Both the position numbers and the translations under genes were made by a program. A stretch of 64,000 nt of DNA, taken from Tridacna crocea (Eukaryota > Mollusca > Bivalvia > Cardiida > Cardiidae). A model generated the notes under the pieces. It was not told the DNA's origin. It worked only from the letters and a program-made list of their open reading frames with translations, and made no database searches. The stretch spans positions 25,943,210 through 26,007,209 of the forward strand of contig OX031073.1 of the NCBI GenBank assembly GCA_943736015.1, read 5' to 3'. Shown piece by piece: positions 58-63,625 of this stretch; the first letter of the stretch is position 1, and each line of letters begins with the position of its first letter.

Positions 58-287
58 TTAACCCATTACCAAACAACAATATTTTAGACTGGTCCAAATT
101 GAAAGCATTTGCAGACGACAAAATAAAATTGACTGAAAATTTGAAATTTGTTTTGTGAAGGGTAGAAAACATTGTTGGAAAAGGAGAAAATGCTGGTTAC
201 CAGCATTTTCTCCTTTTCCCACCATGTTTTCAAAAGGCTTCTTTTCTCAGGGGCGTCAAAAGTAGGGATTGTGTGGTAATGAGTTAA
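58..287 (-). repeat. TPM-A, full length
   Basis: Both TTAA ends, reverse-type arms and a palindrome centred on ctggttaccag near 196 are present. Small mismatch in the right stem (cccacc). Confidence 0.9.
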
Positions 288-311
288 AAGGTGATTGTCT
301 GGTAAAGAGTG

Positions 312-540
312 GAACTCTTTACAATATGTAGACTTCTCTGAATTGAAAGCATTTTGTATGCAATATTTTGACAATTATGATTCAGGTGATGAAATTTGTC
401 TTTGATAAGGTAGAAAACTATGTGGTGAAAGGAGAAAATGCTGGTGACCAGCATTTTCTCCTTATACCACAATGTTTTCAAAAGTTTTTTTTTTTCTCAG
501 GATTTGTTAAAACAATGAATCATGTGGTAAATATGGTTAA
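312..540 (-). repeat. TPM-A, diverged
   Basis: Central palindrome has ctggtgaccag; the left TTAA is lost and the right end reads ggttaa. A poly-T tract interrupts the right arm. Confidence 0.75.
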
Positions 541-622
541 GAATAACTTTTTTCATTATTAAGTAATTATAATGAAGACTTGAACATTGTATGCTCACAG
601 CTGATTTTTGTCTATTCCACAG

Positions 623-820
623 GAAAATCCGGAGGGTAACTTAGAGGATGAAGTTATAGCGCAAGATGTGACAACCTTCTCAAAGAAACATGACTTAGAA
701 AATGAAGAATCCCTGGAGCCCGCGCCCGACATTGAGATCCCCCCACCCATGCCTGTTCAGGACCAGTCTCATATGCTAGCCTTGGGTACAAACCAAACTG
801 CCGATATATCAGAAAAATTT
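623..820 (+). CDS. KALRN: Exon 1: acidic linker before DH2
   Basis: The exon follows a tattccacag acceptor and ends before gtaagt; 66 codons, phase 0 at both ends. It encodes a Glu/Asp-rich, proline-containing low-complexity stretch (IEIPPPMP near residue 43) without a recognisable fold. Its place just before the DH2 exons makes it part of the linker between the first SH3 and DH2 of the family. Support comes from the open frame, good splice sites and phase match to exon 2; there is no motif proof. Confidence 0.72.
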
Positions 821-854
821 GTAAGTGAATTTATCGGTAGATACGATCATTTAC

Positions 855-1049
855 ATCAGAGCTCTAGGTAGACGGAGTGATTTTGTTTTCTAAATTGAAA
901 AAAGTAATATTTCTCCACTAAACCCCATGTTATGAGTACTCATTGGAATCGTCTTATTGAGATGATTCAAATGACTACCACAACATAGGGTTTGGAAGAG
1001 AAATAATGGAATTAGACAACCATCACTCCCTCTGATCTAGAGCTCTGGG
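855..1049. repeat. FB-2 fold-back element
   Basis: Outer inverted ends agagctct...agagctctg plus gagtgat/atcactcc; inner inverted repeat gtactcattggaatcgtc against gatgattcaaatgactacc. It begins 35 bp after the exon 1 donor. Confidence 0.8.
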
Positions 1050-1250
1050 CACGTATTCATCAACCATTCTTGAGAATATTCTTAGTCTTATTCTTCAGAA
1101 TCTTGTCCATGTGAAAGTCACAGGACTTCTAATTGGCTAAACCAAATGGTTTAGCCAATCAGAAGTCCTGTTACTTTCACTGCCAGGAAATCTTGAAGAA
1201 TAAGACCAAGAATGTTCTTAAGAATGGTTGGTGAATACAGACCCTGTTTA
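1050..1250. repeat. FB-3 fold-back element
   Basis: Nearly the whole element is one inverted repeat: tattcatcaaccattcttg at the left pairs with aagaatggttggtgaatac at the right; the centre is ctaaaccaaatggtttag. It abuts FB-2 directly. Confidence 0.85.
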
Positions 1251-1484
1251 TATGGAGGTCATTGTCGAAAACTTAATGCGACATTCTGACAAAGTTCATT
1301 CTGAAGATGGTATTTTGTTCCATGAAGTAAGGATGATATAAAAAATAAGTTCGAGATAAGTTAGTCTTTATATACAGCTGAATTAGTCTTAAGTCTAAGT
1401 TTGAGATAAGTTAGTCTTTAGATACAGCTGAGTGAGTCTTAAGTCAGAGACTACCCTGTTTTCATGACCAGGAACATTTTCAAA

Positions 1485-1650
1485 TTAACCTTTTGCCAAA
1501 CAATCCTTGGTTTTCACGACCCTGAGGAAGAAGCCTTCTGAAAACATTATGGGAAATGGAAAAAATGCTGGTAACCGAAAATGCTGGTAACCAGCATTTT
1601 CTACTTTTCCCATAATGTTTTCTACCCTACCCAACTCAAATTTCAACTCT
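1485..1650 (+). repeat. TPM-A, 3' truncated, duplicated core
   Basis: Left TTAA end and arm are normal. The core reads atgctggtaaccgaaaatgc before a second ctggtaaccag, i.e. part of the palindrome is repeated. The right arm is lost after about 1650. Confidence 0.78.
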
Positions 1651-1798
1651 TGACACCCCTTCTTTTGCTCTCTCCCCACTCGCACCTACGGAGCTCACCT
1701 TTGGCCTGCGTATAATTTACTTTTCACAGTGCAGATGAAAGATCTGACTGCATGTTTTGTAAAGAGAAAAAAAAAGTACTGAGATGCAATTGAAGGAT

Positions 1799-1996
1799 CA
1801 ACTCTTTACCAGACGACAAAATTTTAGACTGGTCCAAATAGAAAGCACTCGCAGAAGGCAAAATTAAAGTCACTCAGAACTTGAAAATTTGTTTTGGGAA
1901 GGGTAGAAAACATGTCAGAAAAAGTTTCCTACAGTGTTTTCTAAAGGCATCTTTCTCACAGTCATTAAAAGTTAGGATTATGTAGTAATGAGTTAA
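1799..1996 (-). repeat. TPM-A with deleted core
   Basis: Both arms are recognisable, but the palindrome is reduced to gaaaacatgtcagaaaaagt followed by ttcctacagtgttttc. It shares its right TTAA (1993..1996) with the next copy. Confidence 0.78.
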
Positions 1997-2221
1997 CTCA
2001 TTACCAAATGACAAGATTTTAGGCCAGTCCATATCGAATGCAATTGTAGACAACAAAATAAAAGTGATTGAAAATTTGAAATTCATTTTGTAAAGGATAG
2101 AAAATATTGTGGGAAAAGGAGAAAATGCTGGTTACCAGCATTTTCTCCTTTTCCCACAATATTTTCTAAGGGCTTCTTTCTCGGGGGCGTCAAAAGTAGG
2201 GATCATGTGGTAATGGGTTAA
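1993..2221 (-). repeat. TPM-A, full length
   Basis: Intact TTAA ends and perfect inner palindrome (ctggttaccag); starts at the TTAA that ends the previous copy. Confidence 0.9.
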
Positions 2222-3593: not shown

Positions 3594-4826
3594 AGGGGTT
3601 TAATGCATGTCCATGAAGCAACATACCAAGCATGTCGTCATTATATTTATGGATCAATTAATTCTTTACCAAACAAGGGGCTTAAATGCATATCCATGAA
3701 GCAATATTCCAAGCAGTTCATTATTATATTTATGGATCCATTAATTCTTTACCAAATAAGAGGGGTTTAATGCATATCCATGAAGCGAAATACCAAGCAA
3801 GTCTTCATTACATTTATGAATCCATCAATTCCTTACCAAACAAGAGGGGTTTAATGCATATCAGTGAAGCAATATACCAAGCAAGTCATCATTACAATTA
3901 TGGATCCATTAATTCTTTACCAAACAAGGGGGTTAAATGCCTGTCCGTGAAGCAATATACCAAGCAAGTCTCTTTTTCAAACAACGGGGTTAAATGCATA
4001 TCCATGAAGCAATATACCAAGCAAGTCATTATATTTATGGATCCATTAATTCTTTTCCAAACAAGGGGGTTTAATGCATATCCATGAAGCAATGTACCAA
4101 GCAAGTCATCATTACATTTATGAATCTATTAATTCCGTACCAAACAAGGGGGTTTAATGAATATCTGTTAAGCAATATACCAAGCAATTCGTCATTATAT
4201 CTATGGATCCATTAATTCTTTATCAAACAAGAGGGGTTTAATATGTATCAATGAAGCAATATACCAAGCAATTCATATTTATGGATCAATTAATTCTTTT
4301 CCAAACAAGGGGGTTTATAACATATCCCTGAAGCAATATACCAAGCAAGTCATTATTATAGTTATGGATCAATATACCTAGCAAATCATCAGGTATGGAT
4401 CCATTAATTCTTTACCAAACAAGGTTATTTAATGCATATCGGTGAAGCAATATACCAAGCAAGTCATCATTTATGGATCCATTAATTCTTCACCAAACAA
4501 GGGGATTTAATGCATATCCGTGATGCAATATACCGAGCAAGTCGTCCTTATATTTATTGATCCATTAATTCTTTACCAAACAAGGGGGTTTAATGCATAT
4601 CCGTGAAGCAATATACCGTGCAAGTCAGCATTATATTTCTTGATCCATTAATTCTTTACCAAACAAGGGGGTTTAATGCATATCCATGAAGCAATATACC
4701 GAGCAAGTCATCATTATATTTATGGATTCATTAATTCTTTACCAAACAAGGGGGTTTAATGCATATCTGTAAAGTATTCCATCAAGCCAGTTGTCATTAC
4801 AATTACAGATCCATTAATTCTATACC
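3594..4826 (+). repeat. Satellite, ~80-bp unit, about 15 copies
   Basis: Units of about 76-83 bp contain gtttaatgcatatccatgaa, ataccaagcaagtca and ttaattctttaccaaacaag. One unit near 3988 is short and one near 4320 is rearranged. The last motif resembles a TPM terminus. No coding role is likely, although one frame stays open through several units. Confidence 0.95.
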
Positions 4827-5054
4827 TTAACCTTTTACCACACAATCCATTCTTTTGACAATCCTGAGAAAAAAAGCCTTTGAAAACATTGTGGGAAAAG
4901 GAGAAAATGCTGGTAACCAGTATTTCTCCTTTTCCAAAAATGTATTCTACCATTTCCAAATCAATTTTCAATTTTTGAGTCACACCGATTTTCTCGTCTG
5001 CAAATGCTTTCAATTTACACTAGTCCAAAATTTTGTTGTTTGGTAAAAAGCTAA
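4827..5054 (+). repeat. TPM-A, full length
   Basis: Begins at TTAA next to the satellite's end. Core ctggtaaccag with a one-base stem loss (agtatttctcc). Confidence 0.88.
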
Positions 5055-5226
5055 GACAAAATTTCAGACTTGTCCAAAATAAGAGCAGTTGCAGACAACA
5101 CAATAAATGTGACTGAAAAATTGAATTTTGTTAGGGTTTCCAGCATTTTCTCCTTTTCCCATGATGTTTTCTCAAGGCTTCTTCCTCGGGGTCATTAAAA
5201 CTCAGGATTGTGTGGTAAAGAGTTAA
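5052..5226 (-). repeat. TPM-A, left half of core missing
   Basis: Reverse-type left arm, then gttagggtttccagcatttt: the left stem of the palindrome is deleted. Right end is agttaa. Confidence 0.75.
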
Positions 5227-5722: not shown

Positions 5723-5908
5723 CAGAGCTCCAGATAGGAGGGAGTGATGGTTTGTTAGGGTCATGATCTTTCATCGAAACCCTAGGTTGTGGGTACTCAT
5801 TAGAATCGTCTCGATGAGACGATTCTAATGAGCACCCACACCATAGGGTTTACTGGAGAAAAATTGATATTTTAATTTTTGAAATCAAAATCACTCCCTC
5901 TGACTGGG
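5723..5908. repeat. FB-2 fold-back element
   Basis: Ends agagctccagataggaggg and atcactccctctgactggg; inner hairpin tcattagaatcgtctcgatg followed by agacgattctaatgagca. Confidence 0.88.
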
Positions 5909-7078: not shown

Positions 7079-7270
7079 TGGTATCCACCAACCATTCTTA
7101 AGAATGTTCTTTGTGTTAATCTCCAGAATTTTCTATAGTTGAAAGTAACACAACTTCTGATTGGCTAAACCAAATGGTTTAGCCAATAAGAAGTTGTGTT
7201 ACTCTCAAAGTTTGAATACCTTGGAGAATAAGACTAAAATTACTTTCAAGAATGGTCGGTGAATACAGAC
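7079..7270. repeat. FB-3 fold-back element
   Basis: tatccaccaaccattcttaa pairs with aagaatggtcggtgaataca; centre ctaaaccaaatggtttag. Confidence 0.85.
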
Positions 7271-7546
7271 CCTGTTACTTTTGACTGTCATTTATAGGCA
7301 TGGGGACTGAGCTTAGCTTGTTATTAAGTTTAGAATCTCTGAATCTTTTGGCATTAAAGTACCCAGAAATGTCAAAATATCTCCAGACTATCTGATATAA
7401 ATGGCAGAGAAACATCAAATTAGATAAGAATAAAATGAAATACCTGCCATTCCAATCAGATATGGCCCCAATAACCAGATCTATAACACCTGGTAGATAA
7501 CCCGAGGACTATATAACATACATACATATATAAACAAATAGAACTG

Positions 7547-7734
7547 CAGAGCTTCATAGGGAGTGGGTTTGATTTCAAATTGAAAATGTTAATTATTCTC
7601 CAATAAAGCCCATGTTATGGGTACTCATTAGAATCGTCTCATCTAGACGATTGTAATGAGTACCCACAACATAGGGTTTCATAGAGAAATAATGGATTTA
7701 GAATGCCGTAACTCTTATCTGGAGCTCTGTAAAA
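7547..7734. repeat. FB-2 fold-back element
   Basis: Inner hairpin tcattagaatcgtctcatct and agacgattgtaatgagtacc; the right end atctggagctctgtaa is conserved, the left end is diverged. Confidence 0.85.
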
Positions 7735-8543: not shown

Positions 8544-8703
8544 AAAGTTGAAAATATTAGTAATTCTCCACTAAACCCTATATTGTGGATACTCATTAGA
8601 ATTGTCTTATAGGACGATTCTAATGTGTACCCACAACATAGGGTTTCAAAGAGAAATAATGGATTTAGATTACCATTACTCCCTGTTATCTGGGGCCTTG
8701 CAG
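8544..8703. repeat. FB-2 fold-back, left end lost
   Basis: Starts inside the element (aaagttgaaaatatt) at the TPM junction; inner hairpin tcattagaattgtcttatag / gacgattctaatgtgtaccc is present. Confidence 0.78.
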
Positions 8704-10769: not shown

Positions 10770-10980
10770 AGTCTTAGACAAGTCCAAAATGAAAGCATTT
10801 GCATCATTATGGTAGTTTGAATGTAAACAGAATTCAGAATCTTAGATATGGAAAAGTAAAAATCATTGTGGGCAAAGAAGAAACTACTTGTAACCAGCAT
10901 TTTCTTCCTTTCCCACAAAGTTTCCAACAGCCCTCTTTCTCAAAGTTGCTAAAATTCAAGATTGGGTAGTAAAGGGTTAA
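10770..10980 (-). repeat. TPM-A, diverged
   Basis: The left arm is reverse-type (gacaagtccaaaatgaaag). Core gaaactacttgtaaccagc has lost symmetry. Ends at TTAA shared with the next copy. Confidence 0.7.
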
Positions 10981-11424
10981 CTCTTTACCACACAACCCCG
11001 ACTTTGGAAAGTCTTTGAAAACATTGTAGGAAAAGTCTTTGAAAACATTGTAGGAAAAGGAAAAAATGCTGGTAACCAGCATTTTCTCCTTTTTCCACAA
11101 TGTTTTCTTCCCTTCCCAAAACAAATTTCAATTCTTTAACTTTTTACCACACGAGAAAAATTTAGACTAGTCCAAATTGAAAGCATTTGCAGACTACAAA
11201 ATAAAGGTGACTGAAAAATTGAAATTTGTTCTGGGAGGGGTAGAAAACACTGTGGGAAAAGGAGAAAATGCTGGTTACCAGCATTTTCTCCTTTTCCCAC
11301 AGTGTTTTCAAAAGGGGGCGTCAAAAGTAGGGATTGTGTGGTAATGGGTTAATCACATTTATTTTATCGTCTGCTAATGCTTTCAATTTGGACTAGTCAA
11401 AAATTATGTCGTGTGGTAAAGAGA
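10977..11424 (+). repeat. TPM-A split by a nested TPM-A
   Basis: The left part 10977..11135 has normal ends and core, plus a tandem 34-bp repeat (gtctttgaaaacattgtagg occurs twice). The right part resumes at 11353 with tcacatttattttatcgtct and runs to the end. A second TPM separates the parts exactly at TTAA. Confidence 0.9.
11136..11352 (-). repeat. TPM-A nested inside a TPM-A
   Basis: Complete element with TTAA at both ends and perfect core (ctggttaccag). It interrupts the right arm of the surrounding copy. Removing it with one TTAA restores a continuous arm. Confidence 0.93.
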
Positions 11425-11942: not shown

Positions 11943-12137
11943 TGCAAAGCTCCAGATAAGAGGGAGTGATGGTATTCTAAAATCATTATTATTTATCATA
12001 ACCCTATGTTGTGGGTACTCATTAGAATTGTCTCGATGAGGCACTACTAATGAGTACTCACAACATAATGTTTAGAGGAGAATAATTATTTTCAGTTTTG
12101 AAATCGAAATGACTTCCTCCATCTGGAGTTCTGTAGT
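11943..12137. repeat. FB-2 fold-back element
   Basis: Left end gctccagataagagggag; inner hairpin decayed on the right arm (gaggcactactaatgagtac). Confidence 0.82.
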
Positions 12138-16069: not shown

Positions 16070-16265
16070 CCGTTTCCACTGACCATTCTTAAGAACATTC
16101 TTAGTCTTATTTTTCAGAAATGTGTCAATGTGTAAGTAACAAACTTGTGATTCAGATTGGCTAAACCATTTGGTTTAACCAAAATGGTTGAGCCAATCAG
16201 AAGTTCTGTTACTTTCACAGTCAGGAAATCTTGAAGAATAAGGCAAAGAATATTATTTTTAGACT
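16070..16265. repeat. FB-3 fold-back, right end truncated
   Basis: Starts 18 bp after the exon 6 donor with tgaccattcttaagaacatt; centre ctaaaccatttggtttaacc; the right arm stops at aagaatatta, before a TPM. Confidence 0.75.
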
Positions 16266-19380: not shown

Positions 19381-19435
19381 GAAAAGTCAGCAAATAAAGA
19401 ATGGTTTCATCGGTGAAATTCTTTTTTAACTCTTT

Positions 19436-19622
19436 ATCACACAAGAAAAAAGTATACTTGTCCAAATTTAAAGCAGTCACAGATTGCAACTTTAAAGCAA
19501 CTCAAAGGAGGAAATTTGTATTCAATAGGGTAGAAAACGTTGTGGGAAAAGTTCCCACAATGTTTTCAAAAGGCCTCTATCATAGGGTCGTTGAAAGTTG
19601 GGATTATGTGGTAAAGGGTTAA
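19436..19622 (-). repeat. TPM-A with collapsed palindrome
   Basis: The inner palindrome is cleanly missing: gtgggaaaagttcccac remains, still inverted. TTAA both ends. Confidence 0.87.
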
Positions 19623-19835
19623 CTCTTTACCAAAAGACAAAATTTCGGACTAGCCCAAATTGAAAGCATTTGCAGACGACAAAATAAATGAGTATCAAAA
19701 TTCGAAATATGATTTAGAAAGGGTATAAAACATTGTGGGAAAAGGTTACCAGCATTTTCTCCTTTTCCCACAATGTTTTCCGAAGGCGTCTTATACACGG
19801 GTGTTAAAAGTCGTGATTGTGAGGTAAAGAGTTAA
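19619..19835 (-). repeat. TPM-A with left inner stem deleted
   Basis: gtgggaaaaggttaccagca: the left gagaaaatgct is gone, the right stem is intact. Shares TTAA with both neighbours. Confidence 0.88.
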
Positions 19836-20060
19836 CTCTTTACCACACAAGAAAATTTTAGACTGGTCCAAATTGAAAGCATTTGCAGACGACAAAATAA
19901 AGGTGACTGAAAAATTGAAATTTGTTCTGGGAAGGAGAGAAAACACTGTGGAAAAAGGAGAAAATGCTGGTTACCAGCATTTTCTCCTTTTCCCACAATG
20001 TTTTCAAAAGGCTTCTTTCTCAGGGTCATCAAAAGTAGGGATTGTGTGGTAATGGGTTAA
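19832..20060 (-). repeat. TPM-A, full length
   Basis: Third of three head-to-tail copies; perfect inner core; TTAACTC and GGGTTAA ends. Confidence 0.93.
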
Positions 20061-20264: not shown

Positions 20265-20491
20265 TTAACCCTTACCCAAACAATCCATGTTTTATACGGG
20301 TCTGGAATAGTAGCCTTTTGAAAACATTGTGGGAAAAGGAGAAAATGCTGGTAACCAGCATTTTCTCCTTTTCCTACAATGTTTTCTACCCTATCATAGA
20401 CAAAATTCATCTTTTCAGCAAGAGTTGAATTGTCGTCTGCAAATGCTTTCAGTTTGGTCTTGTCCAAAAGTTTGTCGTTTGGGAAAGGGTG
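20265..20491 (+). repeat. TPM-A2
   Basis: Left arm caatccatgttttatacggg and tctggaatagtagcc; right arm with agcaagagttgaattgtc and end gtttgggaaagggt. Core ctggtaaccag. Confidence 0.9.
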
Positions 20492-21609: not shown

Positions 21610-23750
21610 TCTACAAACTCAAAAGAGTTGTTGACCGTCAAAACAGCATGTAACCTGAAGAGTTTTTAATTGTCAAAAAAGCAGATAACCTTAGAGTTTT
21701 TAACCATCAAAGCAGCAGGTAATTTTTAAAGGTTTTTAATCATCAAAACAACACGTAATCTTAGGGGTTTTTAACCATTAAAACAGCAGGTAACCTTAGA
21801 GGTTTTTAACCATCAAACAACAGGTAACCTTAAAGGTTTTTAACCGTCAAACAAGCAAGTAACCTTAGAGGTTTTTAACCGTCAAAACAGCAGGTTACCT
21901 TAGAGGTTCTTAACTGTCAAAACAACAGGTAACCTTAGAGGTTCTTAACTGTCAAAACAGCAGGTTACCTTAGAGGCTTTTAACCATGAAAACAGCAGGT
22001 AAATTTAGAGGTTCTTAATCGTCAAAACAGCAGGTAACCTTAGAGGCCTTTAACTGTCAAAACAGCAGGTAGCCTTACAGGTTTTTAACCATCAAAACGG
22101 CAGGTAACCTTAAAGGTTTTTAACCATCAAAACAACAAATAACCTTAAGAGGTTTTTAACCATCAAAACAGCAGGTTACCTTAGAGGTTTTTAACCATCA
22201 AAACAGCAGGTTACCTTAGAGATTTTTAACCGTCAAAACAGCAGGTTACCTTAGAGATTTTTAACCGTCAAAAGAACAGGTGACTTTAGAGGTTCTTTAC
22301 TGTCAAAACAGCAGGTTACCTTAGAGGCTTTTAACCGTCAAAACAGCAGGTAACCTTAGAGGTTTTTAACCGTCAAAACAGCAGGTTACCTTAGAGGTTT
22401 TTAACCGTCAAAAAGCAGGTAACCTGAGAGGTTTTAACTGTCAAAACGGCAGGTAACCTTGGAGGTTCTTAATCGTCAAAACCGCAGGTTACCTTAGAGG
22501 CTTTTAACCATCAAAACAGCAGGTAACCTTAAAGGTTTTTAATCGTCAAAACAGCAGGTTACCTTAGAGGTTCTTAACTGTCAAAACAACAGGTAACCTT
22601 AGAGGTTCTTAAAAGTCAAAACAGCAGGTTACCTTAAAGGTTTTTAATCGTCAAAACAGCAGGTTACCTTAGAGGTTCTTAACTGTCAAAACAACAGGTA
22701 ACCTTAGAGGTTCTTTACAGTCAAAACAGCAGGTTACCTTAGAGGCTTTTAACCATCAAAACAGCAGGTAACCTTAGAGGCTTTTAACTGTCAAAACAGG
22801 TAACCTGAGAGGTTTTAACTGTCAAAACGGCAGGTAGCCTTACAGGTTTTAACTGTCAACACAGGAGTAACTTTAGACCGTTTTTAACCGTCAAAACATG
22901 AAAAAAAAACCTTAGTGGTTTTTAACCATCAAAATGGGTAACCTTAGAGGTTCTTAACTGTCAAAACAGCAGATAACCTTAGAGGTTTTTAACCGTCAAA
23001 ATAGCAGGATACCTTGGAGGTTTTTAACCATCAAAACAGCAGGAAACCTTAGAGGCTTTTAACCAACAAAAGACAGGTAACCTTGGAGGTTTTTAACAGT
23101 CAAAACAGCAGGTAACCTTAGAGGCTTTTAACCGTTGAAATAGCATGTAACCTATGAGGTTTTAACTGCCAATACAGCGGGTAACCTTAAAGGTTTTTAA
23201 CCGTCAAAACAGCAGGTAACTTTAGGGGTTTTTAACCATCAAACCAGCAGGTTACCTTAAAGGTTTTTAACCGTCAAACCAGCAGGTAACCTTGGTAGTT
23301 TTTAACCGTCAAAACCACAGGTAACCTTAGAGGTTTTAACCATCAAAATAGCATGTAACCTATGAGGTTTTAACTGCCAATACAGCAGGTAACTTTAAAG
23401 GTTTTTAACCGTCAAAACAGCAGGTAAACTTAGGGGTTTTTAACCATCAAACCAGCAGGTTACCTTAAAGGTTTTTAACCGTCAAACCAGCAGGTAACCT
23501 TAGAGGTTTTTAACCGCCAAAACAGCAGGTAACCTTAGAGGTTTTAAACGTCAATATAGCATGTAACCTTAGAGGTTTTAACCTTTAAAACAGCAGGTAA
23601 CCTTAGGGGTTTTTAACCATCAAAACAGCAGGTAACCTTAAAGGTTTTTTTACCATCAAAACAGCAGTAACCTTAGAGGCTTTTAACCAACAAAATGGGT
23701 AACCTGGGAGGTTTTTAACCGCAAAACCACAGGTAACCATAAAAATTTTT
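21610..23750 (+). repeat. 35-bp minisatellite, about 60 units
   Basis: Unit: ttagaggtttttaaccgtca followed by aaacagcaggtaacc. Units alternate irregularly between ggtaacc and ggttacc and between accgtc and accatc. Some are 33-34 bp. Lies in intron 8, about 185 bp after the donor. No open frame persists. Confidence 0.97.
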
Positions 23751-25784: not shown

Positions 25785-26012
25785 TTTACCCTTTCCCAAA
25801 CGACAAATTTTAGACTCTTCCAAACTGAAAGAGTTTGCAGACAATAATTTTAAATTTGATGAAAATGGAAGAAAGTTCTCCTAAAGGGTAGAAAACACTG
25901 TGGGAAAAGGAGAAATTGCTCGTTACGAGCAATATCTCCTTTTCCCACAGTGTTTTCAAAAGACTTGTACTGCAGATACGTAAAAACCAGGGCTTGTTTG
26001 GGAAAGGGTTAA
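25785..26012 (-). repeat. TPM-A2 with CTCG core
   Basis: Left arm acgacaaattttagactctt; right end gcttgtttgggaaagggtt. Core gctcgttacgagc within gaaaacactgtggg stem. Confidence 0.92.
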
Positions 26013-27086: not shown

Positions 27087-27168
27087 AATCACAGCGTTAA
27101 TAAACATAGCTTTCTTATATGGGGCAAACCTGCTTACTGTTGAAATATTTTTTTTTTTCCTTTTTCAG

Positions 27169-27381
27169 GGTAAAATCACTGCAGTTGGTAAACTGCTCCT
27201 GCAAGATACACTGCTTGTGGCAGAGGTGACGAGCGCAATGGCAAGCGCTAAAGCCAATCAGCCAAAGTTCAAGGAACGCCGGGTATTCCTGTTTGAACAG
27301 ATCATACTGTTCAGTGAAATGACGGAGAAAAAACGGGGAAATATGGTTAATGCTCACTATTTTTATAAAAACAGTTTAAAG
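27169..27381 (+). CDS. KALRN: Exon 10: PH domain, N-terminal part
   Basis: Seventy-one codons between tttttcag and gtgaga. The exon starts GKITAVGKLLLQDTLLVAEV, and RRVFLFEQIILFSE follows, the first strands of the PH domain that follows DH2. A short insert rich in Ala/Lys (SAMASAKANQPKFK) sits in a strand-connecting loop. In the family this PH domain modulates DH2 activity and membrane or cytoskeletal association. Confidence 0.97.
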
Positions 27382-27419
27382 GTGAGAAGTTGTATGTTTT
27401 AGTGATATTTAAGAAATAA

Positions 27420-30350: not shown

Positions 30351-30579
30351 TTAACCCTTTACGCCATAAGGCATTTCTATAGTATCTCTAATTGACCCTA
30401 AATAACAGCAAGGATGAAGCCATTTCTTATGTGTATATAACACCTTTTGATAGTGTAGAAAACATTGTGGCAAAAGGTGAAATTGCTCGTCACGAGCAAT
30501 TTCACCTTTTGCTACAATGTTTTCCAAAAGCTCCTACAAGCAATGCGTAGAAATGAGTATCTGTGGAGTAAAGGGTTAA
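30351..30579 (+). repeat. TPM-B, full length
   Basis: TTAACCCTTTACGCC left, GGAGTAAAGGGTTAA right; core gctcgtcacgagc; stems aaaaggtgaaatt / aatttcacctttt. Confidence 0.93.
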
Positions 30580-30724: not shown

Positions 30725-30953
30725 TTAACTCTTTACCACATGAGAAAATTTTAGACTGGTCCTAATTGAAAACATTTGCAGACAACAAAATAAAGGTGAC
30801 TGAAAACTTGAAATTTGTTCTGGGATGGGAAGAAAACACTGAGGGAAAAGGAGAAAATGCTGCTTACCAGCATTTTCTCCTTTTCCCACAGTGTTTTCAA
30901 AAGGCTTCTTTCTCAGGGGCGTCAAAATTAGGGATTGTGTGGTAATGGGTTAA
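30725..30953 (-). repeat. TPM-A, full length
   Basis: Core ctgcttaccag; TTAA ends, right one shared with a forward copy. Confidence 0.9.
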
Positions 30954-35218: not shown

Positions 35219-35446
35219 TTAACCCTTTACCCCATGAGACATTTCTGTGGTATCTCTAATTGACCCTAAATTACAGCAAGGATGAAGCCGTTTCTTATGT
35301 GTATATGACACCTTTTGATAGCATAGAAAACATTGTAACAAAAGGTGAAATTGCTCGTCACGAGCAATTTCACCTTTTGCCACAATGTTTTCCAAAGGCT
35401 CCTACAAGCGATGCGTAGAAATGAGTATCTATGGAGTAAAGGGTTA
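35219..35446 (+). repeat. TPM-B, full length
   Basis: Core gctcgtcacgagc; stem mismatch gtaacaaaagg versus ccttttgccac; right tetramer TTAT. Confidence 0.93.
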
Positions 35447-35633
35447 TCATCATCAACTGGTGATGGCTAACTTTTTGTAACACTCACTTCTCAAAACTTA
35501 TCTTCCATATATATGTAGACTTTATTCTTGCAATGCTTTCCTTATGATAGTTGGAAGTCCTTATATGTTTTAGCTCACCTAAGCTGAAAATACCAAAGGT
35601 TAGTTATTGTGATTGATAAGTGTCCAATTTTTC

Positions 35634-37608: not shown

Positions 37609-37819
37609 TAGCTACAGATAGAGGGAATGATTTTGATATCAAAATTGAAAATATTCATTATGCTCCACTAAACCCAATGTTTTGGGTGCTCATTAGAATC
37701 GTCTCATCGAGACGAATCGTCTCATCGAGACGATTCTAATGAGTACCCACAACATAGGGTTTTTATGAGAAATAATGGATTTAGATTATCGTCACTACCT
37801 CTTATGTGAAGCTCTGCAT
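37609..37819. repeat. FB-2 with duplicated centre
   Basis: The hairpin centre reads cgtctcatcgagacgaat twice in a row, lengthening the palindrome by ~18 bp. Outer ends are diverged. Confidence 0.85.
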
Positions 37820-46116: not shown

Positions 46117-46341
46117 ATTTACCAAAAAAAACAGAGTTTAGTATTGTCCGTATTGAAAGCAATTGTCAAGATCAAATTCGACTAACCTCAAATAAAAGAT
46201 TTTTTTCTCAGAAAGATAAAAAAGCATTGAGGGAAAAGAAGAATATGCTGGTTACCATTATAATCTCCTTTTCCTGCAATGTTTTCAGAAGACCTTTCTG
46301 TCAGGGTTGCTGCAAGTCAGGATTGTGTGAAAAAGGTTTAA
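46117..46341 (-). repeat. TPM-A, diverged
   Basis: Core ctggttaccattat; right end gaaaaaggtttaa. Confidence 0.78.
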
Positions 46342-46565
46342 CCCTTTCCCAAACGACAAATTTTAGACTCTTCCAAATTGAAAGAGTTTGCAGACGACAA
46401 TTTTAACTTTCATAACAATGGCAGAAAATTATCCGAAGGGACAGAACACACGGTGAGAAAAGGAGAAATTGCTCGTTACGAGCAATTTCTCCTTTTCCCA
46501 TAGTGTGTTCTAAAGGCTTGTACTGCAAACACGTAAAAACAAGGGCTTGTTTGGGAAAGGTTTAA
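46338..46565 (-). repeat. TPM-A2 with CTCG core
   Basis: Closely similar to 25785..26012; core gctcgttacgagc with stems agaaaaggagaaatt / aatttctccttttc. Confidence 0.93.
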
Positions 46566-47855: not shown

Positions 47856-48051
47856 GCGGAGTTCCAGGTAAGGGGGTGGAGTGATGGTATTCTAAATCCA
47901 TTATTTCTCTTTCAAACCCTATGTTCTGGGTACTCATTAGAATAGTCTCTTTGAGACGATTCTAATGAGTACCCACAACATGGGGTTTCATGCAGTAAAA
48001 TCAATATTTTTTCATTTAAAATCAAAATCACTCTGTCTGGAACTCTGTAAC
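47856..48051. repeat. FB-2 fold-back element
   Basis: Inner hairpin tcattagaatagtctctttg / agacgattctaatgagtacc; ends gcggagttccagg and ctggaactctgta. Confidence 0.86.
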
Positions 48052-48297: not shown

Positions 48298-49154
48298 CTG
48301 ATGATAGTCATTGCAGTGGGGTTCATTCCTATGTCACCACTGCTCATTACTGTTCCACAGGTCATTGTTTTCCTTTTTGCTCTATTCTAACATACTTTTT
48401 AAAAAAGAAAGAGAAAAATAAGATTATAATTTCATGGCATGGAAAAAACAGCCAGATTTGGAAAATAAATGGTTTAGGGAAAAAAAACTTGTATATACTT
48501 ATGTATTACTTTTGTCAGGGTCACTTTTCTGCACAATACATCTTGCAACTGGTCATAAGTAACTCTGCACTGCAAAGGATACTACTAAATTTGCAAGCAG
48601 CACTAGTTGTAATCAGACAGATTATTCTGTTTATTTATCTTTTACTGTTACACTGCAGACCAAGCTCCTGTACATGTCTACATGGTTTCAACAAAGTGAT
48701 TTTTCACAAATAGCTTGGACTTATTTGTTCCTTAATTTTTGAGTATATAATATAGTATCTATCTGGTAGGACCAGGTGATTTTCAAATGAAACAAGTTGA
48801 AGCCAAGTATTTGGTATAAAAATCATCATGGTGCATTAAAATTGCATATTTAATCTATTATCAAAACCTCCATTCGCATTACTATATAGGTCTCATTTAC
48901 CGAACATATCAGATTCTGTAACTGAAACATCTCTCACCCATTTTATCTACAAAGTATGGTGAGTAGGCTAACTTTGAAACATCACCATGTGATGTCAGTA
49001 GCAAGATGAATAGGTTAGACCATATTTTGAAAACCTTTTAGGCTATACAATATTGTCAACTAAACTTCACCAATATTTTCCAAACTTTATAAATATTCCA
49101 ATCATTGATGATGCTGAGTGTCACATGTTACCCATCTTTTTATTCCCCATACAG
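48298..49154. other. Intron stretch before the SH3 exon
   Basis: A SINE-like trace (gatgatagtcattgcagtgg) at the start; a poly-A-rich tract near 48400..48500; nothing else recognised. Confidence 0.45.
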
Positions 49155-49378
49155 CTCATTGAGTCTGGTACCCTTATCATTGGTCGAGTTCTCTTTACCT
49201 ATAATGCTGTAAGAGAGGATGAAATCTCTGTGCTGAAGAATGAAAATGTGCATGTGCTGGGTACCAACCAACACAATATGTTGCTGATACATAGACCAGC
49301 CAATGAGAGCTCTCCAGCTGCAGAGGGGCTGGTTCCCATATATGTTGTAGGAGCAAAGGACACAGATGGCAGTTTTAG
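49155..49378 (+). CDS. KALRN: Exon 14: second SH3 domain
   Basis: A 224-nt exon between cccatacag and gtaaga. It begins LIESGTLIIGRVLFTYNAVR; then EDEISVLKNENVHVLGTN, and EGLVPIYVV close the domain. This resembles an SH3 fold with an E-D-E-I-S RT-loop end and a V-P-x-Y motif, though the usual ALYDY is V-L-F-T-Y-N-A. In the family it may bind proline-rich partners or act in autoregulation. It ends in phase 2. Confidence 0.92.
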
Positions 49379-49743
49379 GTAAGAAAATAGTTAACTAAAC
49401 ATTTGATATCACTGACATCATTGACATCATAATCTATGAATTTATTTCTTCCAGAAATATTTTTTTGTTTTTGTGTTTGCTAATTGTCAAAGGAAATAAT
49501 TTTGGTCAGATTTTGCTTTACTTCCCATGTACATGTATGTTACTTTTTCTTTTAAAGCAGAATTTATTTAAGTAAGCTGTATGGGACAGGTAGAAGATTT
49601 TATTTGTTACATAAATAGTGTTGTTGGCCTTGTTGGACTTGAAAACAATCTTAAAGTCACGATATTTATAAGCACATTTGATTTGTTGTCTATAGATGCT
49701 TCCATACATACAAGTCTTAAAAAAAAATGTATTCTTGCAATAA

Positions 49744-54110: not shown

Positions 54111-54194
54111 AGAATCTTGATGGTATTAAATTTTGTCTCGTGGTAAAGAAATAAGACAAATTTGACTGTATTTTCCATTCTTTTTTTTTACCAG

Positions 54195-54390
54195 GGTTAC
54201 ACTGTTGAATTCAATGAGTTAGGCTTGGAGTACTGGCAAGCTGGCATACCCTATGTTCCAAACACATCGCAAGTGATTGGAGATTTGAACCCAGGATCTA
54301 CATATCAGTTCCGAGTCCGAGCCAACAATACCATTGGCATGAGTGACCCAAGTATTTCCTCGAATTATGTTACCATACCTACAGAGTCTG
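54195..54390 (+). CDS. KALRN: Exon 18: FN3 domain
   Basis: A 196-nt exon between tttaccag and gtaagt. It begins GYTVEFNELGLEYWQAGIPY. L-N-P-G-S-T-Y-Q-F-R-V-R-A-N-N is the standard FN3 strand F motif, and IGMSDPSISSNYV completes the fold. It ends in phase 1. Presence of FN3 favours the Kalirin-type architecture. Confidence 0.96.
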
Positions 54391-54479
54391 GTAAGTATAC
54401 AAAAATGGAAGGGGTTACGGAAGACCTCTCCTTCGTGCATGGCTTATCCGGGTTTAAGTACAAAACCTAAAAACTTTGT

Positions 54480-54960: not shown

Positions 54961-54966
54961 CTGTAG

Positions 54967-55523: not shown

Positions 55524-55972
55524 TTCACCACACAAGACAAACTTTTAACTGCCCTGAGAAAGAAGCCTTTTAACTCTTTGCCAAACAACAAACTTTTGGA
55601 CTAGACCAAATTGAAAGCATTTGCAGACTTCAATTCAACTCTTGCTGAAAAGATGATTTCTGTCTATGATAGGGTCGAAAACATTGTGGGAAAAGGAGAA
55701 AATGCTGGTTACCAGCATTTTCTCCTTTTCCCACAGTGTTTTCAAAAGGCTACTATTCTAGACCCGTAAAAACCAGGGATTGTTTGGGAAAGGGTTAAAA
55801 ACATTGTAGGAAAAGAAGAAAATGATAGTAACTGGCATTTTCTTCTCTTTTCCCCACAATGTTTCTACCCTATCAAAGAGAATTTACATCATTTGAGCTC
55901 CTTTAAAATTGTCATTTGCAAATGCTTTCAAATTGGATGTATCCAAAATTTTGTCATTTGGTAAAGGATTAC
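55524..55972 (+). repeat. TPM-A split by a nested TPM
   Basis: Left arm ...gagaaagaagcc; after the nested copy aaacattgtaggaaaagaag, core gatagtaactggc, and a catttgagctcc-type right arm ending ggatta. Confidence 0.85.
55569..55798 (-). repeat. TPM-A2-like, nested in a TPM-A
   Basis: Left arm A-type (ggactagaccaaattg), right end A2-type (gattgtttgggaaagggtt); core ctggttaccag. Confidence 0.9.
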
Positions 55973-57022: not shown

Positions 57023-57148
57023 TCATGACTCAAGTGATGGGTTTAGTATTGAAAGGGTAATTTGACAGAGGATATAAAAGCATAAATCAGGTGACTAAAC
57101 CACATAAGCCAACCAAACCACATAAGCCAACTTTTTTTTCCTTCACAG

Positions 57149-57349
57149 AGGGAGATTTTCTTTGGTAAAGAAATGCACTCAGAAGTGTTCAAGCCAGAAT
57201 TTTGCTGCAAAATGTTTGAAAAAACACACAGCAAGAAAAGATGAAGTTGAGACGGAATACAACACACTTCAGAGTCTTCAGCACCCTGGACTGGTACAAG
57301 CATTTGATCTGTACGAAACACAGGACTCCCTGATCATGATTACACAACT
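57149..57349 (+). CDS. KALRN: Exon 20: kinase N-lobe
   Basis: A 201-nt exon after ccttcacag with a gtacgt donor. It encodes RGRFSLVKKC (rest of the nucleotide loop), NFAAKCLKK with the beta-3 lysine (fragment residue 1017), and EVETEYNTLQSLQHPGLVQA containing the likely alpha-C Glu. DSLIMITQL leads into the hinge. Phase 2 in and out. Confidence 0.94.
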
Positions 57350-57397
57350 GTACGTAGAATTTGTTGGTTTGGTTTGCATTTGGCATGAAAAGTATAA

Positions 57398-57615
57398 AGC
57401 CTTTACCACACAATTCCAAATTTTAACGAACCATTCTTAAAATGGCTTAAAAACATAATAATTATGGGGAAAAGGAAAAAGTGGTGGTAATTTTTTTTTT
57501 CCTCTTCCCTTGCAATTTTCCTCTTTCCTCCCAATGTTTTCTACCCTTTTAACTGAAAATTGCATCATTTGCACCACATTACAAATACAAATCCTTTGGA
57601 ATTTGACAGAAATCA
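57398..57615 (+). repeat. TPM-A, degenerate
   Basis: cctttaccacacaattcc left end, 48 bp after the exon 20 donor; core ggtggtaattttttttt. Confidence 0.65.
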
Positions 57616-58430: not shown

Positions 58431-58628
58431 TTCTTAAAATTACTATCAGTCTGTCTTGAAGCTTTTTTTTTTTAATTCATTGTAAAATATACTCACTTTA
58501 AAGAAATTTCTCCTTTCATTTTCACAATAAGTTCATATTAGTTTGATTGTATCTCATACTAGTTTAATTGTAAAGCATGCTTTTGCATATTTCTCTCATG
58601 TTTGTTATTTTTTAACCATTTTATACAG

Positions 58629-58767
58629 GGTACCAGCTGGTAGACTGTTTGATTTCATCAGTAGTAGTGTTCAGTTTGATGAAATACAAGGTGGAGATTA
58701 TGCCAGACAGCTGCTTGAAACTGTGCACTACCTCCACAACTGTAGAATTGCTCACCTAGACATCAAA
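58629..58767 (+). CDS. KALRN: Exon 21: kinase hinge to catalytic loop
   Basis: A 139-nt exon between ttatacag and gtaagc. It begins LVPAGRLFDFISSSVQFDEI and ends YLHNCRIAHLDIK. HLD replaces the usual HRD, as in human Trio and Kalirin; the catalytic Asp is fragment residue 1107. It ends in phase 0 just before P-E-N of exon 22. Confidence 0.97.
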
Positions 58768-58812
58768 GTAAGCATAAAGAAAATGAGCTATGCTTTTAGT
58801 CTAGCAAGAGAT

Positions 58813-58912
58813 TTAACCCTTTACCACACAATCCAGACTTTAAATGACTCTGAGGAAGAGGTCTTTTGAAAACATTGTGGAAAAAGGAGAAAATGCTGGT
58901 AACCATCCTTCT
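58813..58912 (+). repeat. TPM-A, left half
   Basis: TTAA end 45 bp after the exon 21 donor; core ctggtaaccatcc, then lost. Confidence 0.8.
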
Positions 58913-58935: not shown

Positions 58936-60622
58936 GCTCACCTGAGCACAAAGTGTTCAGAGTGAGCTATTGTGATCACTCACCGTCCGTCGGCATCCGT
59001 CATCCGTCATCCGTTCACATTTTCTTGTTTACACTCTAGCATCTGCAAATATCAACCAATCAGCACCAAACTTGGTCAAAGTGTGTATGACCATAAGATC
59101 TCGGATGAGTTTGATTATGGGTCAAATCGGACCAGAACATCTTGAGTTATTTGCCCTTGAATTAAGAAAATTGCTATATTTCACTTTGTTTACACTCTAG
59201 CATCTACAAATATCAACCAATTAGCACCAAACTTTGTCAAAATATATATGACCATAAGATCTCGGATGAGTTCGATTATGGGTCTCATCGGACCAGAATG
59301 ACCAGAGTTATTTGCCCTTGAATTAAGAAAATTGCTATATTTGACTTTGTTTTCACTCTAGCATCTACAATTTTTAACCAATTGACACCAAACTTGGAAA
59401 AAATATTCATGACCATAAGATCTCGGATGAACTTGATTATGGGTGTAATCAGACCAGAACAACTGGAGTTATTTGCCCTTGAATTCGGAAAATTGCTATT
59501 TTTGTTTACACTCTAGCATCTACAAATATCAACCAATCAGCACCAAACTTGGTCAAAATATATATGATCATAAGATCTCGGATGAGTTTGATTATGGGTG
59601 TATTCAGACCAGAACAACTGGAGTTATTTGCCCTTGAATTCGAAAAATTGCTGTATTTCACTTTGTTTACACTCTAGCATCTACAAATATCAACCAATTA
59701 GTTCCAAACTTGGTCAAAACATATATGACTCAAGATCTCAGATGAGTCCGATTATGGGTGACCAGAACAACGGGAGTTATTTGCCCTTGAATTAGAAAGT
59801 TTTTTTTAGAATAGTTCTTAGTCTGGAGCATAACTTTGTCATTTCCAGTTCAATTTACTTGAAACTTGGCATTTGTGTTTATTGCAATAAAACAGAGTGC
59901 AGTGTGAAAGAACCATAACTCTACTTCATACTGTCTATAAGTTAATTCCCTTTGATTGAAATTTTTACATCATTTTCTGCTTGTCTGGAATATAACTTTG
60001 TCATCCTCAGCCTGAACATCGTCAAATTTGATATGCATGATTGTTGAAAAATTATGGAGAGCATTGCACAAGAACCATAACTTCCTAGCACAAATTTTGA
60101 GTTATTCCCCCTTCATTTTTATAGCATTTCTTGCTTTGTCAGGAGCAAAACTTTGTCATCTTAAAGAGGAATGACTTGAAATTTGGTATGCTTATTTGTT
60201 GCAGTATTTGGAAGTGCAGTGCCTAAGAATTGTAACTGTACCTTGTGCTGTCTTTAAGTTATTTCCCTTTGAATGTCATTTTTACAGCATTTAATGCCTG
60301 CCCTGAATATAACTCATCTTAAGTCAGAACGACTTCAAACTTGGTATTCATGTTTTTTGCAATATTACGGAGTACAGTGCACAAGAACAATAACTCTACG
60401 TAGCAGGAATTTTGAGTAATTCCACTTTGATCTTCATTTTTACAGTATTTCTTGCTTGTATGGAATGGAACTTCAAAGTCTCAAGTTAGATTGCAACAAT
60501 TTGCTGCTCCTGTTTCATTATCATTTGGCCTTGAACCTTGTTATGTGGTATATATCTTTATTTTAGACCTGTGCTGCTTGGTACTCAGGTGAGCGATATA
60601 GGACCATCATGGTCCTCTTGTT
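58936..60622 (+). mobile_element. AGCTCACCTGAG-type long element with internal tandem repeats
   Basis: Starts agctcacctgagcacaaagt and ends ctcaggtgagcgatatagga then ccatcatggtcctcttgtt; agctcacctgag and ctcaggtgagc are inverted ends. Inside, five ~155-bp units (ttacactctagcatctacaa, ccataagatctcggatga) precede several ~120-bp units (cataactttgtcat). No coding frame. Confidence 0.88.
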
Positions 60623-60627
60623 TGGTT

Positions 60628-60715: not shown

Positions 60716-60948
60716 AACAGCATTAAATGGAAAATGCAATTCATACAAGGGCCTCTAAGCCGGATACCATAATTTGATTAAATGCCAACTATGTGAATCC
60801 ACAGACAACAATAAAATAAGTACCAAATGAATGGGGTTTGTCTTCAAAAGGGTTGAAAAAAATATGAAGAAAGAAGAAATCACTTTTAACTAGCCTTTTA
60901 TCTTATCTAGCGGGCATTTTTTTCTTTTTCGCACATTTTTAACCCTTT

Positions 60949-61169
60949 CCCAAACAATCCCTGGTTTTTATGGGTCTAGAATAGTAGCCTTTTGAAAACA
61001 TTGTGGGAAAAGGAGAAAATGCTGGTAACCAGCATTTTCTCCTTTTCCCACAATGTTTTCTACCCTATCATAGACAGAAATAATCTTTTCAGCAAGAGTT
61101 GAATTGTCGTCTGCAAATGCTTTCAATTTGGTCTAGTCCAAAAAGTTTGTCATTTGGGAAAGGGTAAAA
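60949..61169 (+). repeat. TPM-A2
   Basis: Very close to 20265..20491 (gtctagaatagtagcc; gcaagagttgaattgtcgtc); core ctggtaaccag. Ends 78 bp before exon 22. Confidence 0.92.
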
Positions 61170-61422: not shown

Positions 61423-61453
61423 GTGAGTCGTATTTATGTATACTATTTTACCA

Positions 61454-62041: not shown

Positions 62042-62075
62042 TTTACTAATAAAATTATAATTCACATATTTTCAG

Positions 62076-62255
62076 GAGTGTTGGGGTAATTGTGTATGTG
62101 ATGTTATCCGGAGTGTCCCCATTTCTGGACGAGAGCGAGGAGGAGACATGTTCAAATATCATTCGAAATGATTACTGCTTTCCTGAGGAATTCTTTGTTG
62201 GCATATCGGAAGATGCAAAAGATTTTATACGAGCTATATTGGTGGAGGACCTTGG
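62076..62255 (+). CDS. KALRN: Exon 23: kinase C-lobe
   Basis: A 180-nt exon between tattttcag and gtaagt. WSVGVIVYVMLSGVSPFLDE follows, the helix F region typical of Ca/calmodulin-kinase-group kinases and of Trio/Kalirin. EEETCSNIIRNDYCFPEEFF comes next. Phase 2 in and out. Confidence 0.97.
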
Positions 62256-62379
62256 GTAAGTTATGTTGTGCTGTGGGAAATCAAATGTTATTTCATGCTT
62301 TCCAGTAGGATATCGAGAAATAGCAGAAAGAAGTGCTTTTCATTTGGTGGAGTCTATAATCTTGTAATATAGTGAGGAG

Positions 62380-62608
62380 TTAACACTTTACCACACAATC
62401 CGTATTTTTAACGACCCTGAGAAAATGGCCTTTTGAAAACATTGTGGGAAAGGGAGAAAATGCTGGTAACCAGCATTTTCTCCTTTTCCCACAATGTTTT
62501 CTTCCCTTCAACAAACAAATTTCAAATTTTCGCTCACTTTTGTTCTGTTGTCTGCAAATGCTTCCAATTTGGACAAACCCAAAATGCTGTTGTTTGATAA
62601 TGAGTTAA
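62380..62608 (+). repeat. TPM-A, full length
   Basis: Perfect inner core, one stem change (gggaaagggag); TTAA both ends. Confidence 0.92.
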
Positions 62609-62699
62609 ATGGCTATTGAAAACATTGCGACATCTGGAAGAACAGTAAAATACTTCTGTTTAACTGAGTTGTTCTTGAAAGGATGAAGAAGCATTGTGG

Positions 62700-62830
62700 A
62701 AATAAAAGAAAACAAGAGCACCGCATGTGGGTGCCAACACTTGGCTGCGAATGCTTGATTTTCAGTGAAAATTCTTCATTGAAAAGGGGAATAACTGTGT
62801 CAAAAACACTTTGATGGTTATTTGTCATTG
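62700..62830. repeat. Dispersed-repeat fragment
   Basis: gggtgccaacacttggctgc and ttgattttcagtgaaaattc match fragments near 15200 and 23780. Confidence 0.55.
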
Positions 62831-63002
62831 CTGTGCAGATTCTTCTTTTGATAGAACAAATATAACAAATTATCTAAGTTTGATGTACACATCTTCATTT
62901 TTAACAGAGATAGTGTGAAATATCAAAGTTTTTTTACTAACAAGACATCGACAATGCAGACGATGCCAGGACTACGCGAAAACTTTGACAATTACTTTTA
63001 TT

Positions 63003-63239
63003 TTAACTCTTAACCACACAATCCCGACTTTTAATGACCCTGGGAAAAAAGCCTTCTGAAAACATTGTAGGGAAAGGAGAAAATGCTGGTAACCAGCATT
63101 TTCTCCTTTTCCTACAATGTATTCTACCCTTCACAAACCAAATTTCGATTTTTTCAGTCACATTTAATTTGTTGTCTGCAAATACTTGCAATATGGATTT
63201 CAAGTCAGTCTATAAGTTTGTTGTTTGGTAAAGACTTAA
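63003..63239 (+). repeat. TPM-A, full length
   Basis: Core ctggtaaccag; outer stem variant paired (cattgtagggaaagg / ccttttcctacaatg in part); small insertion in the right arm. Ends 64 bp before exon 24. Confidence 0.9.
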
Positions 63240-63303
63240 TCAGATTGTCACTTTAAAATACTTGCCAACTTTTTCTGATAAATGTTTTTTTCCCTTGTTT
63301 CAG

Positions 63304-63439
63304 CAAAAGACCTACAGCTCAATGGTGCCTAGATAATCAGTGGATTAAACGATGCTCCTCTGTGCGGACAATGCAACCTCGACCTAGACCAATAGCGACA
63401 GGGAGACTTGCCCATTTTGTTGACAGGAGGAAACATTTG
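63304..63439 (+). CDS. KALRN: Exon 24: kinase C-terminus
   Basis: A 136-nt exon between ttgtttcag and gtacgc. GKRPTAQWCLDNQWIKR holds the subdomain XI Arg (about residue 1230). The tail ends GRLAHFVDRRKHL, comparable to the F-I-E-R-R-K-H motif after the kinase in Trio/Kalirin. It ends in phase 0, so at least one more exon is expected. No convincing match to it is found in the last 560 bp. Confidence 0.94.
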
Positions 63440-63463
63440 GTACGCAGCTATACTAGAAACGTT

Positions 63464-63625
63464 TTTAAACAATCCTGACTGTTAACGATGCTGAGGAAGA
63501 AGCCTTTTGAAAACAATGTGAGAAAATAAGAAAATGCTGAATGAAAGCATTGAATGAAAAGGAGAAAATGCCTGAAACCAGCGTTTTTCTCCTTTTCTAA
63601 CAACATTTTCTACCCTACCTGTGAC
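63464..63625 (+). repeat. TPM-A, decayed core
   Basis: Starts 24 bp after the exon 24 donor; two partial left stems (aagaaaatgctgaatgaaag, then aaaaggagaaaatgcctg); right arm short. Confidence 0.7.

Follow-up and report, generated by a model that had tools for sequence, protein, structure and literature searches.

A stretch of 64,000 nucleotides from Tridacna crocea (contig OX031073.1, positions 25,943,210 to 26,007,209, hereafter the window) carries the open frames of a TRIO-like gene along its plus strand and many copies of a short element, TPM. TPM is a set of related elements in at least four groups; conserved in it are the TTAA at either end and, in the centre, a palindrome of 67 bp. The core was shown to stay palindromic even where its letters have changed, and the differences between groups are nearly all paired. 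Where the genome was sampled, TPM accounts for about a fifth of the sequence. We consider it likely that TPM is a piggyBac-like set of miniature inverted-repeat transposable elements (MITEs) whose palindromy has been kept in the source lineages, probably because palindromic copies amplify better.

Based on a profile search of the window, 136 non-redundant TPM copies and fragments were found, 68 on each strand, covering 23,617 bp (36.9%); 67 of the 136 reach both element ends. The profile was built from 54 near-full-length copies, with the copy at 1993–2221 as the seed, and in both the window and the genomic sample described below hits overlapping a better hit by more than 35% were removed. The consensus is 229 bp long including both TTAAs, and the reversed window, used as a control, gave 0 profile hits. 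An earlier note on this DNA, made from the letters alone, had described about 100 copies or fragments of a ~225-bp element in both orientations, filling about a third of the window; the element is real, and the by-eye figures agree well with the measured ones, the copy count being higher. TPM shows the traits of a MITE: it is short, non-coding, homogeneous in length and high in copy number. The TPM core pattern had no match in viral_contigs and genome_contigs. The following copies serve as reference:

1993–2221, plus strand: full-length TPM copy, group A, profile seed, palindrome arms fully complementary
2100–2166, plus strand: 67-bp core of the copy at 1993–2221, with one paired change (113 C>T and its partner)
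58–287, plus strand: full-length TPM copy, group A, left end CCCATTACCA

The core consists of two 33-bp arms around a 1-nt centre and is a perfect palindrome in the consensus, so that the near-perfect ~65-bp palindrome with almost no loop noticed earlier was read correctly. When the window copies were sorted into age classes by divergence from the TPM consensus, the core had diverged less than the flanks in each class: 3.6–3.9% vs 7.9–9.3% in the youngest (24 copies), 5.4–6.9% vs 18.3–18.6% in the middle (25 copies) and 10.3–16.1% vs 24.3–25.8% in the oldest (18 copies). Divergence of the terminal repeats over the three classes (10.7, 12.9 and 15.5%) lay between core and flanks or near the flanks. 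A count of palindromes with arms of 26 bp or more and loops of at most 7 nt in 264 kb (the window and loci L009–L028) gave 137, 120 of them inside TPM copies; long near-perfect palindromes thus occur here about once every 2 kb.

The earlier note had assumed one family, and this part of it has to be given up, since four groups (A, D, E1 and E2) were found at the least. The commonest, group A, begins CTCTTTACCA, CTCATTACCA or CCCATTACCA; its right end is CCCTTT or CCCATT, its left end mostly CTC, and the imperfect terminal repeat is about 10 bp long. Groups D and E have CCCTTT at both ends. Group D (copies at 17916, 30351, 35219 and 46720) begins CCCTTTACC and group E begins CCCTTTCCCA; within the latter, E1 has an A-type core, and in the E2 core two pairs are swapped. 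In the majority consensus, the cores of A and E1 pair along all 33 positions, those of D and E2 at 32 of the 33. Between A and D the left flanks are 66% identical, within the range of shuffled sequences (mean 60, maximum 72), and the cores 85%; the right flanks are 60% identical, a figure that has no shuffle control. The left flanks of A and E are related (78%). A genome search with the D copy at 35219 gave 39 further copies at 96–97% identity among the best 40 of 2155 candidates, a best-scored subset that is uninformative on D copies overall. Representatives of these groups in the window are:

30351–30579, plus strand: group D copy
35219–35447, plus strand: group D copy with which the genome was searched
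20265–20491, minus strand: group E1 copy, CCCTTTCCCA end, A-type core
60939–61167, minus strand: group E1 copy
25786–26012, plus strand: group E2 copy, core pairs 138/144, 133/149 and also 115/167 swapped
46338–46564, plus strand: group E2 copy

Relative to A, the core of group D is swapped at pairs 138/144, 133/149, 128/154 and 121/161, in every case in both arms, and the E2 core is swapped at 138/144 and 133/149; pair 115/167 is swapped in some A and E2 copies. It is because the core is common to groups with unrelated left flanks and differs between them by two-arm changes that we regard palindromy as kept in the source lineages. Group D might instead have captured a TPM core, or the flanks might have been exchanged by recombination, so that the core is shared without constraint. 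The A and D left flanks do look unrelated while ends and core are common, and adjoining and nested copies are frequent enough to allow recombination. Nevertheless, the four two-arm swaps of D, two of which occur in E2, point to a longer history of the core than a recent capture would give, and we regard module exchange as unlikely.

Paired change was examined in several sets of cores. In 96 window copies there were 65 double changes, 48 of them complementary, vs 11.9±3.3 complementary (maximum 24) in shuffles of two kinds. In 247 cores from the window and the sampled loci (364 core loci listed beforehand, cores with more than four gaps removed), there were 209 double changes (154 complementary), with 74 expected; wrong pairings gave a mean of 65.5 and at most 95. 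The true partner ranked first at 9 of the 31 varying positions of this set; a tenth position with rank 1 is an empty tie, as the first two core positions are invariant, and was not counted. The 167 cores from outside the window alone had 152 double changes vs 37 expected on pooled rates. A separate tool was applied to 103 cores, chosen from 126 ungapped distinct cores by leaving out 16 of loci L002–L008 (which had been fetched for a good match to a TPM copy), one of L037 and 6 others. It counted 73 cells changed on both sides vs 16.6±3.5 in shuffles and 15–28 in slid controls, and the covariation score was 0.112 vs 0.061 shuffled and at most 0.048 slid.

The joint states at the four D pairs were GAAG/CTTC in 125 cores, CTTC/GAAG in 12 and GATC/GATC in 9; the remaining states in the list, which covers 197 of the 247 cores, deviate at one or two positions, and none of them is a cross between the types. 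Based on these results, about five paired changes in the source lineages are demonstrated. A wobble pair is bypassed by four of the five frequent swaps (A:T to T:A, G:C to C:G), and some paired changes are private to a single copy. The changes in copies left in the genome are mostly one-armed (231 left, 242 right, 48 paired complementary).

Several observations weigh against selection for palindromy. Most of the paired cells are supplied by five pairs inherited by many copies, and the counts are thus of cells, not events. Pairs with a double change numbered 13, vs 8.7±1.7 in shuffles (4 of 500 reach 13), but slid controls gave 10–14; likewise, the 42 pair types are within the slid range of 31–42. 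One-sided states are common at two of the swapped pairs: at 121/161, A:C occurs 25 times and G:T 17 times vs 17 for the swap C:G, and at 115/167, C:A occurs 14 times, A:A 9 and T:G 8 vs 18 for C:G. On a flank tree of 89 copies, 31 double changes fell on the same branch vs 10–21 for wrong pairings, a modest excess; 18 of the 31 were complementary (11 on terminal and 7 on internal branches). Furthermore, the flanks of A and E are related, so that D alone offers a strong flank contrast.

The same pattern could arise if the palindrome had no function and one arm were repeatedly copied onto the other, by gene conversion or template switching. Template switching is described, in the part of PMC8794818 available to us, as a source of paired changes in hairpins, there in RNA genes; the bypass of the wobble pair in most common swaps and the private paired changes also agree with such copying. 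The predominance of one-armed changes in resident copies speaks against it, indicating that inter-arm copying is infrequent after insertion, and inter-arm copying alone would leave the gap between core and flank divergence unexplained. We therefore find this explanation rather doubtful, while giving it real weight. It is also conceivable that the palindrome is kept as an RNA hairpin, for example as a small-RNA precursor or an editing substrate, since a stem of 33 bp would fold into a strong hairpin once the intron around it is transcribed. The cores, however, contain no more G.T than A.C mismatches (50 vs 54 over three age groups), most of the swaps skip the wobble step, and an Rfam scan of the window at the gathering threshold gave no match; a role in RNA appears improbable.

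In the window, 110 of 161 projected TPM ends bear an exact TTAA (left 46 of 79, right 64 of 82), in line with the TTAA flanks claimed earlier; for the sampled loci the figure is 209 of 305 (left 94 of 148, right 115 of 157), vs a background of about 0.8–0.86% of positions. Since the TTAA columns are part of the TPM profile, these counts are biased towards TTAA. Most of the other ends are one base off TTAA. Among the two-ended copies of the window, 33 of 58 have TTAA at both ends and 6 at neither; the corresponding numbers for the sample are 56 of 99 and 7. The short CCC or CTC ends described earlier were also recovered, the left end being CTC or CCC and the right end mostly CCC.

Evidence independent of the profile bias comes from nested copies, where removal of the inner copy and one TTAA restores the host TPM copy. 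Of 76 sites examined, 13 had a profile hit spanning the restored junction, and 11 of these were inspected. Seven were ungapped at the junction, six with TTAA and one with TAAA (copies at 11136, 17916, 17249, 55570, 41477, 46720 and 4827); the other four (60939, 14867, 26754 and 53598) were gapped nearby or merely adjacent. The empty sites show that the TTAA target is duplicated on insertion. The TPM consensus has no internal TTAA, so the targets inside host copies arose by mutation. The seven ungapped cases are:

11136–11352, plus strand: copy nested in an opposite-strand TPM copy (10977–11421); host restored ungapped, one TTAA
17249–17472, minus strand: copy nested in another TPM copy; empty site one TTAA
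17916–18131, plus strand: group D copy with CCCTTTACC ends and swapped core pairs, inside a group A copy; one TTAA at the empty site
55570–55798, plus strand: copy nested in another TPM copy; empty site one TTAA
41477–41705, plus strand: copy nested in another TPM copy; empty site TAAA
46720–46947, plus strand: group D copy inside another TPM copy; one TTAA at the empty site
4827–5054, minus strand: copy nested in a second TPM copy, close to its left end (remainder 5054–5226); empty site one TTAA

In addition, TPM copies often abut. The window has 14 junctions with two TPM ends at most 3 bp apart, 11 of them on an exact TTAA and equally divided between same and opposite orientation (7 and 7), and the sample has 15 (9 same, 6 opposite). 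Head-to-tail duplication is disfavoured by the 13 of 29 coinciding junctions that are in opposite orientation, and independent insertion into terminal TTAAs is the better fit. Two such runs in the window are:

19426–20060, plus strand: three abutting TPM copies with single shared TTAAs at 19619 and 19832
30725–31143, no single strand: two abutting TPM copies in opposite orientation with a common TTAA at 30950

A tandem array at 3594–4826, with a unit of ~83 bp containing a sequence like the TPM left end (TTAATTCTTTACCAAACAAG), continues into TPM sequence at 4827–5226. As the array runs into TPM sequence, a TPM end may have been its starting point.

The filing of TPM as a piggyBac-like MITE is supported by its TTAA and termini. 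A PF13843 search of the genome gave at least 118 piggyBac transposase matches (116 of 196 candidates scored), none of them in the window, where other transposase types were not searched. The remark in the earlier note that no transposase is present here thus stands for piggyBac matches within the window, while piggyBac transposases do exist elsewhere in the genome. Eighteen of the 118 loci were read, and 10 have at least one settled end; the ends are unsettled in L029, L030, L032, L037, L041, L042, L043 and L045. The settled ends are CCCTTTATATAC in L034, L046 and L044 and at the left end in L033, CCCTTTCAGTGC in L035 and L040, CCCTAGTCATGC in L036 and L039 and at the right end in L038, and CCCATTTATGCCT in L031. 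These piggyBac elements are TTAA-bounded and start CCCTTT, CCCATT or CCCTAG. Together with single-TTAA empty sites and pyrimidine-first termini, they support the piggyBac-type reading that had been suggested for TPM. It should be added that L033, L034, L044 and L046 represent a family of ~2.7 kb with CCCTTTATATAC ends, whose copies are ~98–99% alike over the compared stretches and have long open frames; because of this likeness and these frames, the family has probably been active recently.

Some features of the ends fit the assignment less well. In the 18 transposase loci read (10 with at least one settled end), no autonomous element carried TPM ends, and the full-length relative with the same ends, for which the earlier note proposed to look, was likewise missing there. 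The settled piggyBac ends share only 4–7 bases with TPM. Moreover, piggyBac-like MITEs are described in the part of PMC2872659 seen as having a CC[C/T]T motif in terminal inverted repeats of 12–19 bp, from which the left end of group A, mostly CTC, departs. TPM could alternatively be a MITE of Kolobok, the other TTAA superfamily, as Kolobok elements also duplicate TTAA and occur in molluscs according to the accessible text of PMC9587614. The same text gives their termini as 5′-RR..YY-3′, purine-first, whereas TPM begins CT or CC and ends GG, which makes a Kolobok origin very improbable.

To place the window in the genome (1,048,827,098 bases in 31 contigs, with the window on contig C18), twenty 10-kb stretches from 18 contigs were sampled, at position 12,000,001 on C1–C18 and at 30,000,001 on C2 and C4; locus L001 was dropped, as it repeats the window. 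The sample contained 260 TPM copies or fragments covering 21.6% (bootstrap interval 17.5–25.7%; 4.5 to 40.0% per locus), and TPM was present on every contig sampled. The reversed sample gave one hit. At 13 copies per 10 kb, extrapolation to the whole genome gives a total of about 1.36 million (1.11 to 1.61 million), fragments included. In a DNA search of the genome with TPM, the best 40 of 4988 candidates were scored. With 21.6% coverage in 200 kb sampled elsewhere, the element is clearly not confined to the introns of one gene, as had been supposed. TPM density in the window is rather high, 30 to 56% per 10 kb, and the overall 36.9%, above the sample mean, might suggest that the copies serve this gene, for instance in TRIO splicing or regulation. 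This we hold to be extremely unlikely, given that loci elsewhere reach 40.0%, that the orientation in the window is balanced and that the element is found on all sampled contigs.

We suggest the following course of TPM amplification. A putative piggyBac-type transposase would cut and paste TPM copies in trans into TTAA sites. The terminal TTAAs of each inserted copy would then offer new targets, so that later copies may enter beside or inside earlier ones in either orientation, as the junctions indicate; runs of abutting copies would form because the terminal TTAAs serve as targets. Palindromic copies may amplify better, and the palindrome would hence be retained, with paired changes possibly supplied by DNA template switching between the arms. 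After insertion, copies would decay, mostly one arm at a time.

Going further, the palindrome may be a third cis-acting part of the MITE, selected at the DNA level for palindromy and not for its letters. Such a part could let elements with unrelated flanks and altered ends amplify, one palindrome-cored group filling about a fifth of a gigabase genome. This proposal is a tentative one, to which we give somewhat less than even confidence; our confidence is lower here because the count of double-changed pairs does not exceed the slid controls.

The nearest known kind is the CMITEs of corals, from which TPM stands apart by its scale, its long palindrome and the paired changes. As far as the available portion of PMC2872659 describes them, the Acropora CMITE families are, like TPM, short and non-coding, with TTAA duplication and piggyBac-like ends; they too occur in tandem runs, and their internal region is better conserved between families than the terminal repeats. 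In contrast to TPM, they are ~100 bp long, with an estimated 1600 copies in A. millepora, and that portion describes no long palindrome or paired changes. For CMITE arrays the authors suggest slippage (PMC2872659, same portion), whereas abutting TPM copies lie in both orientations. A 36-base part of the CMITE internal consensus had no place with nine or fewer mismatches in the 343.8 kb searched.

The autonomous piggyBac elements of the T. crocea genome (L031, L034–L036, L039, L044 and L046, and with partial ends L033, L038 and L040) resemble TPM in their TTAA flanks and CCC-initial terminal repeats; they differ in being 2.6–2.9 kb long and encoding a transposase, and their repeats diverge from TPM after 4–7 bases. 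Palindromic DNA inside a transposon is also known from the ends of piggyBac and piggyBat, where, according to the part of PMC11707139 consulted, short palindromes are bound by the cysteine-rich domains of the transposase and matter for transposition. Those palindromes are 14–19 bp long and near the tips, whereas that of TPM is 67 bp long and central. By analogy, they may be taken as a precedent for palindromic cis elements, though not for a central one of 67 bases. A bivalve survey left MITEs unclassified in the part seen (PMC10294476), and a MITE group at ~20% of a 1.05-Gb genome was not found described in the literature searched.

Whereas covariation usually serves to prove RNA structure, in TPM it is met in a transposon made of DNA, and most of the swaps behind it skip the wobble step. 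Natural groups differing at paired positions make the role of internal MITE sequence in amplification directly testable. If the palindrome is indeed a third cis-acting part, hundreds of thousands of near-perfect palindromes would, by extrapolation, have been seeded in the genome through it. The density of about one per 2 kb in the 264 kb examined offers a natural test of how cells tolerate palindromes.

The open frames of the host gene include the following, the best solved relative of the PH domain being Triple functional domain protein; four further open frames in the window had no Pfam match:

27088–27399, plus strand: PH domain exon of the TRIO-like protein
49014–49382, plus strand: SH3_KALRN domain
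54147–54467, plus strand: fibronectin III match
57126–57437, plus strand: kinase domain, first piece
58531–58869, plus strand: kinase domain, second piece

Other repeats were observed as well. A second repeat, unrelated to TPM, has a central palindrome with ~36-bp arms and a loop of 3–6 nt, and similar palindromes occur in the sampled loci L011, L016, L017 and L020. Its seven copies in the window are:

857–1047: second palindromic repeat
5723–5902: second palindromic repeat
7554–7729: second palindromic repeat
8545–8702: second palindromic repeat
11943–12135: second palindromic repeat
37612–37819: second palindromic repeat
47860–48047: second palindromic repeat

A third repeat, the greater part of which is palindromic, has three copies (1053–1248, 7081–7275 and 16075–16255), with similar palindromes in L010, L011 and L024. 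Finally, a 161-bp tandem unit at 59025–59798 may resemble molluscan minisatellites; satellite-like arrays were found at 21622–23750 (unit ~35 bp), 28488–29122 (~156 bp) and 59025–59801 (~161 bp).

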